Shown piece after piece: positions 3,075-49,978 of a stretch of 49,978 nt of DNA. Source of the DNA: Plectonema cf. radiosum LEGE 06105. GTDB lineage: Bacteria > Cyanobacteriota > Cyanobacteriia > Cyanobacteriales > Nostocaceae. The stretch's first letter is position 1; the number at the start of each line of letters is the position of its first letter. The notes under the pieces were generated by a model that saw nothing but the letters and a program-made list of their open reading frames with translations, had not been told where the DNA came from and did no database searches. A program made the position numbers and the translations under genes. The stretch spans positions 1-49,978 of the forward strand of contig NZ_JADEWL010000036.1 in NCBI RefSeq assembly GCF_015207665.1, given 5' to 3'.

Positions 3075-4449
3075 TAGACAAATGGTAATGGGAGCGGGCG
3101 GACGCGACCAACAAAGCACTGGCTTTGCTTGGTGGTCTGGTAACGCTCGTTTGATTAATCTTTCCGGTAAACTACTGGGCGCTCATGTTGCTCACGCTGG
3201 TTTAATCGTTTTCTGGGCTGGAGCAATGACCTTGTTTGAGGTTGCTCACTTCATTCCTGAAAAGCCGATGTACGAGCAGGGTTTAATTTTGCTACCTCAC
3301 CTAGCAACTCTTGGTTGGGGTGTTGGTGCTGGTGGTGAAGTTATTGACACCTTTCCCTACTTTGTTGTTGGTGTACTCCACTTAATTTCTTCCGCAGTAT
3401 TAGGTTTCGGCGGTATTTATCACGCCGTTCGCGGTCCAGAAACCTTAGAAGAATACTCTTCTTTCTTTGGTTATGACTGGAAAGATAAAAACAAAATGAC
3501 CAACATCATTGGGTTCCATCTAATCATCTTGGGATGCGGTGCCTTGTTGTTGGTACTTAAAGCAATGTTCTTTGGTGGCTTGTACGATACTTGGGCACCC
3601 GGTGGTGGTGATGTCCGCGTCGTTACTAACCCAACCTTGAATCCGGCGACAATCTTCGGTTACTTGCTCAAGTCTCCCTTCGGTGGTGAAGGTTGGATAG
3701 TCAGCGTTGACAACCTTGAAGATATTGTTGGTGGTCATATTTGGGTTGCCATCATGTGTATTTTTGGTGGTATCTTCCACATTCTGACTAAGCCTTTCGG
3801 TTGGGCTCGTCGTGCTTTCATCTGGTCTGGTGAAGCATATCTATCTTACAGTTTGGGTGCTTTATCCTTAATGGGCTTTATCGCTTCCATTATGGTTTGG
3901 TACAACAATACTGCTTACCCCAGCGAATTCTTTGGTCCTACAGGTCCTGAAGCTTCTCAAGCTCAAGCTTTGACCTTCTTGATTCGCGACCAACGTTTGG
4001 GTGCAAACGTCGGTTCTGCTCAAGGTCCTACAGGTCTAGGTAAATACTTGATGCGTTCTCCTAGTGGTGAAATCATCTTTGGTGGTGAAACCATGCGCTT
4101 CTGGGATTTCCGTGGTCCTTGGTTAGAGCCTCTACGCGGTCCTAACGGTCTTGACTTAGAAAAAGTTAAAAATGACATTCAGCCTTGGCAGGCTCGTCGT
4201 GCTGCTGAATACATGACCCACGCACCTTTGGGTTCATTGAACTCTGTAGGTGGTGTTGCGACCGAGATTAACTCCTTTAACTACGTATCTCCTCGTGCGT
4301 GGTTGTCTACATCTCACTTCGTATTAGGTTTCTTCTTCCTAATCGGTCACTTATGGCACGCAGGTCGCGCTCGTGCGGCTGCTGGTGGTTTTGAGAAAGG
4401 TATTGACCGCGAAAGCGAACCAGTAATGTTTATGCCAAATCTAGACTAG
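3058..4449 (+). CDS. psbC: photosystem II CP43 chlorophyll-binding protein
   Basis: CP43 is an inner antenna of photosystem II, with six membrane helices, and donates a ligand to the manganese cluster. I start at GTG 3058, giving MVTLSN and 463 residues, because of the GAGGAGG site at 3042; the reading frame stays open upstream only because it runs through psbD. Diagnostic blocks include [36 protein letters not shown], the lumenal loop [31 protein letters not shown] and [20 protein letters not shown]. The N-terminus seems a few residues longer than in some relatives (RQMVMGAGG between SN and RDQQ). A hairpin terminator lies 40 bases downstream. Confidence 0.97.
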
Positions 4450-9000: not shown

Positions 9001-9296
9001 ACCACAATAGACGATGCAGGCAAAGTTAGATCATCAGTAGCTGTAGCTTTGGTTTTTTTACCTGACTTGACCTTTGAATTTTCAGTTTTAGTTTGTACCC
9101 ATTCTGTAGGAATTGCAAGATTACGAGAACGCAATAACTCTAATAATTCTAAGGGTGTCATAGCTCCATGATGAGACCGTACCCCCATTAATTCATCTTG
9201 ATTAGAATTGGTATCTATAGAACGCCAAGTTTCTCCCCATACAAAAAAACAGCTACCTTGACCTTGTAGTAACCAACTACCGTGTAAAATTGCCAT
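6048..9296 (-). CDS. SNF2/Rad54-family DEAD-like helicase
   Basis: A 1082-residue SNF2-family ATPase that probably translocates along double-stranded DNA and remodels protein-DNA complexes. The N-terminal half is the bacterial SNF2-associated region, with a lysine-rich linker near residues 105-115 (QQEKKKKKKQ). The ATPase core starts near residue 600: RPYQRRGMSWL, Walker A DDMGLGKT near residue 628, Walker B DEAQ near 728, and TGTPVENRLQELW. The C-terminal lobe has SLKAGGVGLNLT, FDRWWNPAVENQATDRVFRIGQ and the arginine-finger region. It sits just upstream of the SWIM-finger gene on the same strand, so the two probably form an operon. The ATG start is followed by a typical MAILHGSW opening. Confidence 0.95.
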   Translation of the reverse strand: MAILHGSWLLQGQGSCFFVWGETWRSIDTNSNQDELMGVRSHHGAMTPLELLELLRSRNLAIPTEWVQTKTENSKVKSGKKTKATATDDLTLPASSIVVALPSHIPQQEKKKKKKQDIDFIYPLHSGVNQGEIGKPQYLQPWQVNGFCLNPRETIKFLTSLPMNVADDEQTFVGGDLRFWSQVARWSLDLIARCKFLPKIENVDNSTEKSKIASWEALLDSAVDGSRLDKYSRGMPLSCRVYQVDNSDDYPSINLPPESEQLLLDFLNQTIDAQVRTMVNSLSSAETRLLASVPSVVRQWLYALTSDKNSISADTSEVERLEAALNAWTMPLQNQLGQRSLFRTCFVLRTPEAGETEWLLEYYLQAIDDEKFLLDAQTIWNHPVERLVYQNRIIDKPQETFLRGLGLASRLYPIVAPSLDTALPQFCRLEPMQAYDFIKSVTWRFEDNGLGVVLPPSLANRDGWANRLGLKVSAQTPKKTERLGLQSLLNFQWELAIGGQTLSKQQFDKLVALNSPLVEINGEWVELRPQDIKTAQTFFADRKDKMALSLEDALRLGSGDTQTIEKLPVVSFEASGALQELITNLTDNQEIESLPTPTNFRGELRPYQRRGMSWLSFLERWGLGACLADDMGLGKTVQFIAFLLHLQEQSALENPILLVCPTSVLGNWEREVKKFAPNLKVLQYHGDKRPKGKTFQNAVKNTNIVITSYSLVHRDLKSLQDVPWQIIALDEAQNIKNPEAKQSQAVRQLEPEFRIALTGTPVENRLQELWSIMDFLNPGYLGNRQFFQRRFAMPIEKYGDTSSLSQLRSLVQPFILRRLKTDRDIIQDLPEKQEMTVFCGLTPEQATLYQQVVEDSLSQIDDAEGLQRRGMILGLLVKLKQICNHPAQYLKKDKLEHHDSVKLQRLEEMLEEVILNGDRALIFTQFAEWGKLLKPYLEKHFNRETLFLYGSTSKKQRDEMVDRFQQDPQGPQVMILSLKAGGVGLNLTRANHVFHFDRWWNPAVENQATDRVFRIGQTKNVQVHKFVCTGTLEEKIHDMIESKKQLAEQVVGAGEEWLTEMDTDQLRNLLILDRDAVIEEDS

Positions 9297-45950: not shown

Positions 45951-47234
45951 ATGTACAGAGCAATTAAAGTTAGAATCTATCCCACCTTGGAGCAAGAATC
46001 TTATTTAGCTCAATGTTTTGGTAATACCCGTTGGCTGTGGAATTATATGCTTAATGCTACAACCACAGCGTACAAAGAAACAGGGAAGGGTCTTTCTAAG
46101 ATTGCAATGGACAAATTGTTGCCAGGATTAAAGAAAGAATATGAATGGTTAGGACTCGCATACAGCCAAGTATTGCAACGAGTAACATTTAATCTTTCTA
46201 GTACCTTTGTCAATTTCTTTGAAGGACGTGCCAAATATCCCAACTTCAAGTCTAAACATGGTAAGCAATCAATTCAGTATCCCCAAAACGTTAAGTTAAT
46301 GTCACAAGATGGTGTAATCAAGTTTCCAGGGTTATTGGGGATGGTTAAAGCTGTGTTTCACAAAGAACTACCAAATGCCAAGTTCACAACTGTAACTATA
46401 TCTAAAAATGCAGATGGTAGGTACTACGCTTCTATCCTGTTTAATCAAGAGGACGAGCCAGTAGTTGCTGTTAACGATGCTATTGGGGTTGACCTCGGAT
46501 TGAAAACCTTTGCTGTCACTTCTTTTGGTTCAAAGTACGACTTGCCTAAGAAGCAATTAGCAAAACTAGAGAAAAATAGGAAGCGTAAACAGAAAAAACT
46601 AGCTAGAAAAAAAGATAAGGCATCTAATAAACGTCAAAAAGCTAAACGCTTAGTAGCTAAAGTCTCTAGCCGTGGGGCTAGAGTCCGTGAAGACTTTCTA
46701 CACAAACTATCTCGCAAAATAGCATACGAAAACCAAGTAATTTGTGTAGAAGACTTGGCAGTTAAAAATATGGTGAAAAATCCTAACTTGGCAAAAGCTA
46801 TTAGTGACTCTTGTTGGGGAATGTTTTTAACCATGTTGAAATACAAAGCTGAAAGATTTGGACACACCTATATTGAAATAGGTCGGTTTTTCCCATCATC
46901 TCAACTTTGCAGCGAAACACTACTACCAATCCCAATATTGCAAAACGGTTATGATTCATTGGGGATTAGATTTGTAGATTGTCCCCACTGCCATAAACAG
47001 CATGATAGAGACGTCAATGCTGCAATAAATATTAAAAATGAAGGTTTGCGATTATGGGCGTTAGGAACTAAAGGCAGCGCGGTCTTGGGGTCTCCCCAAG
47101 GGTCGCTCCTGCCGTGCGCTTCTGCCCAAGGAGGGGATGTAAGACCAAAGACTTCTGGACGTAAAAAATCTACGAAGTCTGAGGCAATCCCCAACGATCT
47201 GGGAAGCCTACACTTACCCGCAAGGGAAGTGTAG
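45951..47234 (+). CDS. tnpB: RNA-guided nuclease TnpB (IS200/IS605 family)
   Basis: TnpB is the RuvC nuclease ancestral to Cas12, guided by an RNA (omega RNA) from the element's right end. The 427-residue product starts MYRAIKVRIYPTLEQE. RuvC residues are Asp181 (GVDLGLKTFAV), Glu267 (ICVEDLAVKNM) and Asp354 (HDRDVNAAINI), all intact. The zinc finger is irregular: the second pair is CPHC, but the first is CSET, so one Cys is missing, and its loop (LLPIPILQNGYDSLGIRF) is longer than usual. Near residues 375-395 an in-frame palindromic repeat adds VLGSPQGSLLPCASAQ before GGDVRPK. The last codons overlap the right-end hairpin. Nuclease activity is likely but unproven. Confidence 0.9.
   Translation: MYRAIKVRIYPTLEQESYLAQCFGNTRWLWNYMLNATTTAYKETGKGLSKIAMDKLLPGLKKEYEWLGLAYSQVLQRVTFNLSSTFVNFFEGRAKYPNFKSKHGKQSIQYPQNVKLMSQDGVIKFPGLLGMVKAVFHKELPNAKFTTVTISKNADGRYYASILFNQEDEPVVAVNDAIGVDLGLKTFAVTSFGSKYDLPKKQLAKLEKNRKRKQKKLARKKDKASNKRQKAKRLVAKVSSRGARVREDFLHKLSRKIAYENQVICVEDLAVKNMVKNPNLAKAISDSCWGMFLTMLKYKAERFGHTYIEIGRFFPSSQLCSETLLPIPILQNGYDSLGIRFVDCPHCHKQHDRDVNAAINIKNEGLRLWALGTKGSAVLGSPQGSLLPCASAQGGDVRPKTSGRKKSTKSEAIPNDLGSLHLPAREV
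47073..47113. repeat. palindromic repeat inside tnpB
   Basis: GGCAG (47073-47077) and CTGCC (47109-47113) enclose CTTGGGG-TCT-CCCCAAG (47084-47100). The sequence keeps the tnpB frame open and accounts for extra residues before GGDVRPK. It resembles small palindromes scattered in cyanobacterial genomes. Confidence 0.65.
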
Positions 47235-47242
47235 GTAGTTCA
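47207..47242 (+). ncRNA. right-end hairpin and probable omega RNA 3' part
   Basis: CCTACACTT and AAGTGTAGG form a perfect 9-bp stem (47207-47215, 47227-47235), followed by TAGTTCAC. In this class the guide RNA covers the end of tnpB and this hairpin, and the guide itself is the flanking DNA just beyond, here the 3' end of nrdJ. The 5' end of the RNA is not visible. Confidence 0.5.
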
Positions 47243-48310
47243 CATGGGTTTATCTTCGGGCATCATACACTTGTCGGAATCGCATCCGGATGGTCCGGCT
47301 TCCATTAATTCACCGAAATCATACCGTTTCAATGCATTGTTAAAATCATTTGTCTCACGACGATTTTCTACTTGTGCCATTAACTCTTCATATTGTTGTT
47401 TATCGATTGGTTCAAATGGTAAGCGAGGAAAGGTTTGATGGTCGTCGAATCTTGCCAAAAGTGCGGCACTAATATAGCCTTCATCGTTTTGAATCGCTTG
47501 GTAGATGCGATTTCCCAATGCTTCTACTTCGTTTTCTCGCACTTCAATAGTGGCTGAAGTGTTGTGAGTAACGTAGAATTGCTGCACCTGCATATAAAAA
47601 TCCATTTGAGCTAAAGCGTTAAATTTATCGATGGCAATTTCATCGGCACCCGGTACATCTGCCCAAGGTACAGCAACGGGAATTTCTACTAACCATTCGG
47701 TACAGCGAGAGTCGAAGGGATCATTTAACAAGTTGCCGTTTTCGTCTTTATCGGCTTGAGAAGGAACCACCGCATAACCGTAATCAATACAAGCTAAGGC
47801 TACCGGGTCATTTTTGCGGAAAGTTATCCGCCGAATAAATCTTTGGGCTTTGGGTGGGTGCCATCCTGGAGAAGCCCCAGTAAGCAAGGATTTAGTACCG
47901 CTGGGTTGCACTGTGGTACAGCGATTTGGGCGTTTTATCTGATGGCGATCGCAATATTCCCAAACTACCCGATGTACGATTTCTTTCCACATACTCAGAT
48001 ATTCTTGTTCGCGACGTTTAAAGGCTAAACCTTCCTGTGTTGCAGGTCTTCCTTCCGTCCACCAATGCAACCAGTCAACCCCAAAAGCACTGACAAAGAA
48101 GTCAAATAAGCCGGTAAAAGATACACCCACAATCGGGTCTAATTCGCGACTATATTGATAACGTGGTTCCAAAAAATGATGATTCAACAACACTGCTACA
48201 GATAAAGCACCGGCTGTAAAAGCTTCTTCTTGTTCTTTGTAATTTTCGGGGTCGATTTGATTTAAGTGAACTTCACTCAGGTTACAGTGAAAATTAGAAC
48301 CAATGATTTC
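47240..48310 (-). CDS. nrdJ: ribonucleotide reductase, class II (NrdJ), exon 2
   Basis: C-terminal 356 residues of the adenosylcobalamin-dependent ribonucleotide reductase, joined in frame after removal of the intron at 48311-48579. The exon begins with Glu (GAA at 48310), the catalytic acid of NPCGE, then IIGSNFHCNLSEVHLN with the second redox Cys. Further blocks are LDPIVGVSFTGLFDF, TVQPSGTKSLLTGASPGWHP and the C-terminal swinging-arm pair CDSDKC (C-x4-C), which is re-reduced by thioredoxin. A TTG at 48313 lets it read as a separate frame, but that codon is inside the intron. The TGA stop touches the right end of the tnpB element, which may have supplied it. Confidence 0.93.
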   Translation of the reverse strand, partial: EIIGSNFHCNLSEVHLNQIDPENYKEQEEAFTAGALSVAVLLNHHFLEPRYQYSRELDPIVGVSFTGLFDFFVSAFGVDWLHWWTEGRPATQEGLAFKRREQEYLSMWKEIVHRVVWEYCDRHQIKRPNRCTTVQPSGTKSLLTGASPGWHPPKAQRFIRRITFRKNDPVALACIDYGYAVVPSQADKDENGNLLNDPFDSRCTEWLVEIPVAVPWADVPGADEIAIDKFNALAQMDFYMQVQQFYVTHNTSATIEVRENEVEALGNRIYQAIQNDEGYISAALLARFDDHQTFPRLPFEPIDKQQYEELMAQVENRRETNDFNNALKRYDFGELMEAGPSGCDSDKCMMPEDKPM

Positions 48311-48579
48311 CAATTGTGTTACCCTAGAGGCTTTTTATCCCCTAGTTCTACTGCTTGATAATTCGCAGTAGTTCCGCGTACATTTTCATCCTCATAAATT
48401 ATGGATGCCCCACACTCTTGGAGATTTATATTCTAAAATGCAACTTTTATTGCAATCTAGTTTCATTCTCTACGCTGTACGGTGTCAAAAGCTCTTTAAT
48501 TCTTTTGATTACCTCGGTATTAGCATTTCAGCTTTCACCGATTTTGCGGGGTTTTTTACGTGAGGCAAAAGTATCAATT
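48311..48579 (-). ncRNA. group I intron in nrdJ (269 nt, no ORF)
   Basis: Self-splicing-type intron between GGT (Gly of NPCG) and GAA (Glu). The 5' exon end CGUGUGGU can pair with GCCUCACG in the intron (48557-48564 region), with the hallmark U-G wobble exactly at the splice site: this is P1 with its internal guide. The intron ends in G (AATTG before GAA). GCGUA and UACGC can form P7. CTAGGGG/CCTCTAG and CTACTGC/GCAGTAG are perfect or nearly perfect terminal hairpins (P9 type). CGGTG/CACCG could be P3 or P4. No endonuclease frame is present. Group I introns and inteins are known to recur in ribonucleotide reductase genes. Confidence 0.85.
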
Positions 48580-49836
48580 ACCACACGGGTTCAAGCCAAA
48601 CCTATTTAGACGATGCTCTATTTCATTGTCATTAAGATGAAAATGCTTTTCTTGGAGCCAATCTTTACCTTTACCTTGTTGATAAGCTTGTAAAAAATCA
48701 GTTTTCAATTCCTGCGTAGTTAGTAAATCAACGTTTGCTCTAGCAACAGCTTCACCAGCCCATTGAATCGCACCCTCACCACTGTAATATTGCTTGCGAA
48801 CTGCATTCACACATTCTTCTAAAGTCGGTTTATGGTGAAATACTCTGCTATGATTCGCCATGCGTAAAGCATCACGTTCTGGATCTATACGCCAATTTCC
48901 ATCTTTATCTTGCTGCCATAAGTTTGCTTTTGCGTCAGCAAAGGCAGTGTCTGTATCAATTCCTTGACGGATACCCGCGCTTCTTCGGATATTGCCTGCC
49001 ACAATTGTAACAGCCGCTTCATCAATTAACAAACAGCATTCAACCGAAGTCAATTTTCTGCCAACAGCTTTATTAAGAATCGCAGCACAACGCTGATAAA
49101 GCTCCGGTAACTTCACCGGATTTGCCATACCACCGAAACCTTGCAACGGTTCCCCAGCTTTACGAATATCATTGATATCAACGATTACTTCAACTTCTTC
49201 GTTAAAACGTTCGTCGCTAGAGAGTTCCAAAAGAGTTTGATAAGACTGAACCCAACCTTGACGGCTATCACCCACATAAATAGTAACGCGATTAGCTTCG
49301 CTAGATGCCGGAGGCATATCGCCATCTATCTTAATTTCCGTAAATTCACGGCGTTCGTTAGCTATAGTTTTACCAATATTTCCTTGTATCGTTACATTTA
49401 AACGATTGCGGATGCATGGTAATTGATTAATATATTTTGGTTCTAAAATCGCTCCTGTACCACAGCCCATCATAGCCAAATCCATCATTAAACCGAAAGC
49501 TTTCCAGTCAATGACATTTGTCGAAGTACAGTTATAAGCCCCCGAAAAATTCTTCGGTTGATTCAACCAATTTGTACCACCTACCCATAACCATCTTCCA
49601 CTCGGTAAAGCCTTCAGATTGCGCTGCATCCGCTCCAAAATTGCAGCTTCATCTCCGTTTAGCTTACCCAACTCAATCAAACCTTGAAGAGTGCGATCGC
49701 AAACCTCTTCCCAAGTTTCTCTAGTTCCTATGGACTGTTGACGACGGCTGTAAGTCCTGAAAAATACAGGGTTTGCCGCAGGGGCTGTTTCTGGAAAGTT
49801 TGCACCCAGGTGTTTCCGTTCAAGCTCTTGAACCAT
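48580..49836 (-). CDS. nrdJ: ribonucleotide reductase, class II (NrdJ), exon 1
   Basis: N-terminal 419 residues of the B12-dependent reductase that converts ribonucleotides to deoxyribonucleotides without oxygen; class II enzymes suit organisms that keep micro-oxic cells. It begins MVQELERKHLGANFPETAP. Redox Cys: FSGAYNCTSTNVIDW. The active-site loop NPCG ends the exon, with Cys 418 the radical-forming thiol. In the unspliced transcript one Asn codon and then TGA follow, giving a dead product lacking the catalytic Glu. Exon 1 plus exon 2 gives 775 residues, a normal intein-free length. No cobalamin riboswitch is visible in the 120 bases of upstream sequence available. Confidence 0.93.
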
Positions 49837-49960
49837 ATTTTTATTGATTTTTATCGCGTCTTTTTTTCTTTCAGATTAAGACTATACGCCAAATAGCAGT
49901 ACAATTAAAGATTGCAAAATTTGGGAATTTACGCTACAGGAATTGAGATGGGGGGACAAG

Positions 49961-49976
49961 CTGTCTCTTATACACA
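49961..49976 (+). other. Tn5/Nextera adapter remnant at contig end
   Basis: CTGTCTCTTATACACA matches the first 16 of 19 bases of the reverse complement of the Tn5 mosaic end used in Nextera libraries. It stands at the last bases of the window, preceded by GATGGGGGGA repeat sequence, so it is library sequence and not genomic DNA. Confidence 0.9.
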
Positions 49977-49978
49977 AC

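Follow-up and report, generated by a model that had tools for sequence, protein, structure and literature searches.

The closest described relative of the element studied here is the group I intron in the ribonucleotide reductase (RNR) gene of Nostoc punctiforme, for which Meng, Zhang and Liu 2007 is cited in the excerpts of PMC1995217 and PMC12702839 and, with regard to cyanobacterial RNR introns, in that of PMC3984707. The intron of strain PCC 73102 (RIR; J Bacteriol 189:2150) resembles ours in that it sits in a related cyanobacterium, interrupts an RNR gene and belongs to the same intron class; going by the title of that paper it holds an insertion sequence, which our copy lacks, and the two insertion sites are compared here at the level of the gene. 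In N. punctiforme NIES-2108 we found a 288-nt intron at exactly the nrdJ junction described below (L111). For phages, the extract of PMC3653736 names RNR as the nucleotide-metabolism gene most often interrupted by group I introns, and that of PMC2795772 puts the group I introns in RNRdb entries at over 100. Given that the N. punctiforme RNR intron was published in 2007, our element is a further case of a known element type and is largely known. Among titles and abstract openings (a scope with subscription journals mostly outside it), we found no paper on the spread of the nrdJ intron and none on several element types at the nrdJ site.

We analysed a stretch of 49,978 nucleotides from Plectonema cf. 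radiosum LEGE 06105 (contig NZ_JADEWL010000036.1, positions 1 to 49,978; henceforth the window), in which a class II (B12-dependent) nrdJ gene lies on the minus strand, split into a first frame at 49836-48580 and a second at 48310-47240. An earlier reading made from the letters alone (the sequence-only reading) had set two nrdJ frames 269 bases apart; we reproduced both coordinates and the length of the gap, which is not a multiple of 3 and falls between the Gly and Glu of NPCGE. In our best explanation, a self-splicing group I intron (IA-type) almost certainly interrupts nrdJ between the Gly and Glu of CGE; we established the sequence, splice boundaries, conserved structure and spread among genomes, and infer the self-splicing chemistry and splicing in the cell. 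The features of the locus are as follows.

48580..49836, minus strand: nrdJ 5' exon, 419 codons, the last completing NPCG; class II B12-dependent RNR (Pfam RNR_Alpha, RNR-II_ins_dom; 1L1L)
47240..48310, minus strand: nrdJ 3' exon, 356 codons plus stop; first residue is the Glu of NPCGE
48311..48579, minus strand: group I intron (almost certain), ORF-less and 269 nt long; runs from A at 48579 to the omega G at 48311
48559..48587, minus strand: P1, in which exon bases 48587-48580 pair with guide 48566-48559 and the splice-site pair is U.G
48308..48310, minus strand: P10 candidate, exon-2 GAA/GAG with UUU/CUU directly 5' of the guide (48569-48567); counts are over related sequences
48546..48551, minus strand: P3 5' strand, pairing with 48413-48408; 5/6 pairs vary on both sides
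48408..48413, minus strand: P3 3' strand, from comparative structure
48514..48541, minus strand: P4 (48541-48537/48518-48514) and P5 (48533-48531/48524-48522)
48481..48513, minus strand: P6 and P6a, from comparative structure
48471..48477, minus strand: P7 5' strand, C[A]GCGUA, bulged A at 48476
48375..48380, minus strand: P7 3' strand, UACGCG
48421..48470, minus strand: P7.1 domain, 48470-48467/48424-48421; 4/4 pairs vary on both sides
48387..48407, minus strand: P8 hairpin; in L089, L098 and L120 the endonuclease ORF begins here, judged by eye
48348..48371, minus strand: P9, from comparative structure
48324..48345, minus strand: P9a; 1/6 pairs varies on both sides

The first frame ends in GLNPCG and, left unspliced, adds a single codon (Asn) before TGA, just as the sequence-only reading had described; the second begins with EIIGSNFHC. 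Joining GGT to GAA mends the frame and yields NPCGEIIGSNFHC, the product expected of the excision proposed there, and the predicted exon-exon junction after removal of the 269 nt would read CCGTGTGGT followed directly by GAAATC. The Pfam matches in exon 1 (RNR-II_ins_dom and RNR_Alpha) are those of a B12-dependent RNR, and the one relative of the joined NrdJ among solved structures (E<=0.001) is 1L1L, a class II reductase. Its residues 408 and 410 are aligned with the Cys and the Glu of our NPCGE; we take the former for the radical Cys and the latter for a catalytic glutamate, so that the split does fall in the catalytic loop, as had been claimed.

Outside nrdJ, the 3' end of a TnpB (IS605 OrfB) gene (window 45951-47234, plus strand) adjoins the nrdJ stop codon. 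Because the stop TGA and the bases that follow it are unlike those of near relatives, the TnpB element appears to have inserted at the extreme 3' end of nrdJ. Elsewhere, the window holds an IsrR antisense RNA (3478-3664; RF01419, 162.8 bits), and its final bases (49960-49978) read ctgtctcttatacacaac, which to our eye resembles the Nextera mosaic end and is probably leftover adapter rather than genome sequence.

To describe the relatives of the intron, we ran BLAST with the 269 nt alone over 100 genomes, 99 of them from relatives and one the window's own, and obtained matches in 36. In 29 of the 30 loci among the matches listed (window included), the intron lies exactly at the Gly/Glu codon junction of NPCGE; this identity of the junction excludes chance and bears out the splice sites first proposed. 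The thirtieth locus (L030, genome G031) is in rtcB, as are L190 (G073) and L191 (G046), and G051 carries the intron at the nrdJ site (L226); the matching genomes left out of the junction check were G028, G039 and G072. Within the window's genus the intron is present in 4 of 8 genomes (G000, G002, G003, G005), with junction and helices in the other three as in the window, while G001, G004 and G007 are uninterrupted and G006 carries an intein inserted two residues upstream, at NP^C. The junction peptide was matched in 80 of the 100 genomes and was in one piece in 26; the interrupted genomes examined comprised 30 with the window-type intron, G064 and G097 with another intron, and G006 and G013 with inteins.

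P1, CGUGUGGU with GCCUCACG, consists of seven pairs including the U.G at the splice site, so the exon-intron pairing of the sequence-only reading was recovered, with a U-U mismatch to be added to it. The U.G at the 5' splice site recurs in 29/29 same-site introns. Because the guide pairing of P1 demands these exon bases, Pro-Cys-Gly is spelled CCG TGT GGT in 29/29 intron-bearing loci, as against 3/26 uninterrupted relatives (L194-L219). At the other end, the terminal G announced for the intron is found at 48311 and is shared by all 69 loci whose end was set by a protein match (11 further ends were located by a pattern that itself requires G). The P10 candidate also varies in a matching way: exon 2 starts with GAG in 7/80 loci, and CUU precedes the guide in 6 of these 7 versus 2 of the 73 with GAA (Fisher p 6e-7, over related loci with a few duplicates). 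An in-frame stop follows the 5' splice site within 7 codons in all 80 same-site loci (51 of which come from scans with a fixed P1 sequence) and stands at codon 2 in 73; in the window, translation into a retained intron would end at the intron's second codon. The longest sense open stretch in the window's 269 nt has 37 codons, and this copy therefore has no homing endonuclease ORF, again in agreement with the earlier reading. The frame running from the first intron base ends in VRGTTANYQAVELGDKKPLG, which resembles the C-termini of the relatives' endonucleases; we rejected it as proof of a lost ORF because in those relatives the ORF overlaps the RNA core.

We then aligned the 29 same-junction introns (A1) and counted pairs over a core that had first been drawn on the window sequence (helices P1, P3, P4, P5, P6/P6a, P7, P7.1, P8, P9 and P9a). 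Standard pairs fill 98.0% of the 1711 cells, and 36 of the 59 pairs vary on both sides (P1 0/7, P3 5/6, P4 4/5, P5 2/3, P6/P6a 7/10, P7 3/6, P7.1 4/4, P8 5/5, P9 5/7, P9a 1/6). With partners slid by 1-3 columns, 34.5-43.6% of cells paired, a comparison in which the real structure has an advantage in cells paired from having been drawn on the window first. The covariation score was 0.475, compared with a shuffle mean of 0.161 and 0.050-0.099 for slid partners, and 0 of 500 shuffles attained the observed pairing and covariation values, a significance that is overstated because the sequences are related. P3 and P7 form a pseudoknotted core with P4-P6 and P8, in which P3, P4, P5, P6/P6a, P7 and P8 each include pairs that vary on both sides. 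P7 has the form C[A]GCGUA/UACGCG, with the variants GCGUA/UACGC, GACUA/UAGUC and GAGUA/UACUC and with C as the bulged base in L029 and L031; by homology, we take the bulged-A P7 of the window intron to be its G-binding site. The group I identity proposed by the sequence-only reading is thus upheld by a shared P1/P3-P9 core, in which P1 is the one helix that does not covary among the 29. A P7.1 (and P7.2) between the P7 5' strand and the P3 3' strand is a hallmark of group IA, and the P7.1 domain, present in the window copy and covarying, points to that subgroup.

Thermodynamic folding of the window RNA is supportive (z -4.62). Its centroid fold, computed without relatives, contains 53/53 of the drawn pairs outside P7, and its minimum-energy fold has neither P3 nor P7.1; since P7 is a pseudoknot, folding alone cannot show it.

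The Rfam group I model RF00028 gave no match to the window copy, even at E<=10. Over 20 loci (the window, 18 same-site relatives and one in rtcB), it picked up four of the same-site relatives, with E from 7.9e-5 to 0.0025 and no score reaching its 50-bit cut-off. Considering these four sisters and the clear comparative structure, the miss looks like a limit of sensitivity, and we rejected RF00028 as a sole test because it is insensitive for these introns. Formally, the blank for the window copy is the outcome that the sequence-only reading had named as refuting it, a covariance search without a group I core. The same genome has another group I intron on contig C319, of the same ribozyme class; unlike the window intron it is recognised by RF00028 (98.8 bits), and it is matched weakly (23.8 bits) by R1, a covariance model of the intron's 5' half that we built from 23 of the 29 introns. 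No group II family was among the 8 Rfam matches at E<=10; SAM_alpha and snoRNA-like matches were all under their cut-offs, and the SAM_alpha match starts with P1 itself. For an intein, no open frame runs through both exons, and the 269 nt have stops in all frames; for an IStron, they contain no transposase and no ORF.

In the mechanism we propose, P1 would place the 5' splice site of the pre-mRNA after U48580, a guanosine bound at P7 would attack it, and the released exon end would attack after the terminal G (48311), with P10 aiding the alignment of exon 2; the ligated mRNA would then encode a full class II ribonucleotide reductase. In its own genome nrdJ exon 2 is present once. A search of that genome, which excluded the small-subunit family of class I, gave no match to PF02867 or NRDD, although the silence of PF02867 is weak evidence against other RNRs because it fails to reach the window's nrdJ too. 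Since no other RNR was found and a retained intron stops translation, splicing is probably essential for dNTP synthesis.

It could be argued that the 269 nt are a decayed intron that no longer splices and that nrdJ is a pseudogene. The miss of RF00028 would fit, but all drawn core helices of the window copy consist of standard pairs, both exons are open, exon 2 is single-copy with no other RNR among the families sought, and the three further genomes of the genus keep the same junction and helices; we therefore regard decay as very improbable. Even less credible, and close to negligible, is an intervening sequence of another kind (group II intron, intein or plain insertion). Inteins do interrupt nrdJ of relatives, at NP^C and 7 codons downstream, but stops in all three frames exclude one here, the search for group II families was empty and the covarying core is that of group I; moreover, 269 nt is short for a group II intron.

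A group I intron that is real but needs host or translational help, so that its splicing efficiency gates the supply of dNTPs, has a better claim than either of these and is still unlikely. It would suit the early stop found in 80/80 copies and the sole RNR found, and an excerpt of the review PMC3984707 links an early in-frame stop to ribosome stalling and intron folding; against it, nothing at the window locus speaks for regulation, and the stop may just reflect A/U-rich intron 5' ends. We thus retain the self-splicing group I intron as the preferred explanation.

Within the family, R1 detects window-type or related introns in 117 of 217 genomes; in a sample of 338 genomes from the class it has matches in 27. 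Both totals include weaker matches elsewhere, in rtcB (5/5 loci checked) and in tRNA genes. Although built without tRNA introns, it detects those in tRNA-Met (L189) and tRNA-Leu (L192), for both of which RF00028 is above its cut-off. A genome pattern scan (80 of 116 stretches among the matches listed) gives no prevalence; its loci outside nrdJ, Bacillaceae included, had no nrdJ match and were taken as chance or other genes. The intron tree and the nrdJ tree reject each other in the AU test (p 8e-60 and 9e-9), and intron and nrdJ distances are weakly correlated (Mantel rho 0.27, 0/999 permutations, 72 loci). These trees come from fixed-length 5' segments in which long P5 loops cause some copies (L004, L028 and others) to be misaligned, and for this reason we make only the weak claim that the intron may have spread non-vertically, not simply tracking its host gene.

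Eight same-site loci (of 80) with a gap of more than 480 nt ending at the start of exon 2 all contain an endonuclease-like ORF; these eight do not include L116, whose long gap is accompanied downstream by an intein-like interruption. The ORFs of L095 and L089 have weak Pfam matches, mostly below cut-offs, to Phage_endo_I (presumably a PD-(D/E)xK fold) and NUMOD3; those of L098, L100, L117, L120 and L147 resemble them by eye, and L076 has a GIY-YIG domain (2.3e-10). In L095, L098 and L120 the endonuclease-like frame crosses the P7 3' strand and P9 nearly to the intron end, so that the ribozyme core doubles as coding sequence. Judged from these sequences, the intron family is patchily distributed; some of its members carry endonuclease-like genes, and the window copy is one without an ORF.

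Related cores also occur in phages. When the intron was compared by blastn with 50,697 phage records, 30 gave a match, 12 of them spanning >=80% of the query, with stretches ~70% identical to the intron core. Three of these elements differ from the window intron in host gene and P1 guide sequence: Bacillus phage PJN02 (core 69.8% identity, R1 86.4 bits; flanked by RecD-like helicase parts and accompanied by an endonuclease), C. difficile phage phiCDIF1296T (71.1%, 74.2 bits; before the tape-measure gene, with neither an intron annotation nor an annotated endonuclease beside it) and crAss-like cr6_1 (76.1%, 67.8 bits; with an intron-encoded endonuclease on one side and an ATPase gene on the other). 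The viral contig L150 (199,763 bp, IMG/VR) carries an nrdJ interrupted at the corresponding site by a 249-nt copy, which falls within the cyanobacterial copies in a midpoint-rooted tree. On another viral contig, L152, positions 9110-9239 show the exon and guide sequence of the window's nrdJ intron with a different intron core.

Cyanobacterial rtcB is split by a related group I-like intron in L188, L193, L030, L190 and L191. By eye the split lies between GSLGGG and NHFIE in L188 and L193, and all 5 loci are interrupted at about that point; the L188 intron has a LAGLIDADG ORF inside. In full-text literature we found no paper title on a group I intron in cyanobacterial rtcB.

The nrdJ loop itself receives other elements. 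In two further genomes (L224, L225) the exact nrdJ junction holds a group I intron of another type, whose P7 sequences are classic; its P1 likewise ends in U.G, whereas its core differs and the exon reads UGCGGU and the guide GCCGC, so exon and guide have changed together and the P1 pairing is kept. Inteins lie at NP^C of the same loop in L227 and L228 and, beside the group I intron, 7 codons downstream in L010, L012, L013 and L014 (LAGLIDADG was found in the L013 intein, the sole one of the four searched). Counting two kinds of group I intron, the intein at NP^C and the other intein 7 codons on, we tentatively put forward a wider reading, possible though on balance somewhat doubtful: unrelated self-splicing elements, spread by PD-(D/E)xK-NUMOD3 and GIY-YIG endonucleases and in part phage-borne, may all use the CGE loop as a landing site, where the intron would fix the synonymous codons of the catalytic Cys and splicing would gate dNTP synthesis in a cell with a sole RNR.

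These results mean that a 'broken', probably essential nrdJ would be whole after splicing, and that the general group I model of Rfam misses an intron family that is common in this cyanobacterial family (117/217 genomes by R1, some at other sites). Guide pairing accounts for the synonymous-codon bias at the catalytic Cys. Given its patchy occurrence within the genus, its endonuclease-bearing relatives and the copy on a viral contig, the nrdJ site lends itself well to following how introns are gained, lost and spread by phages in nature.
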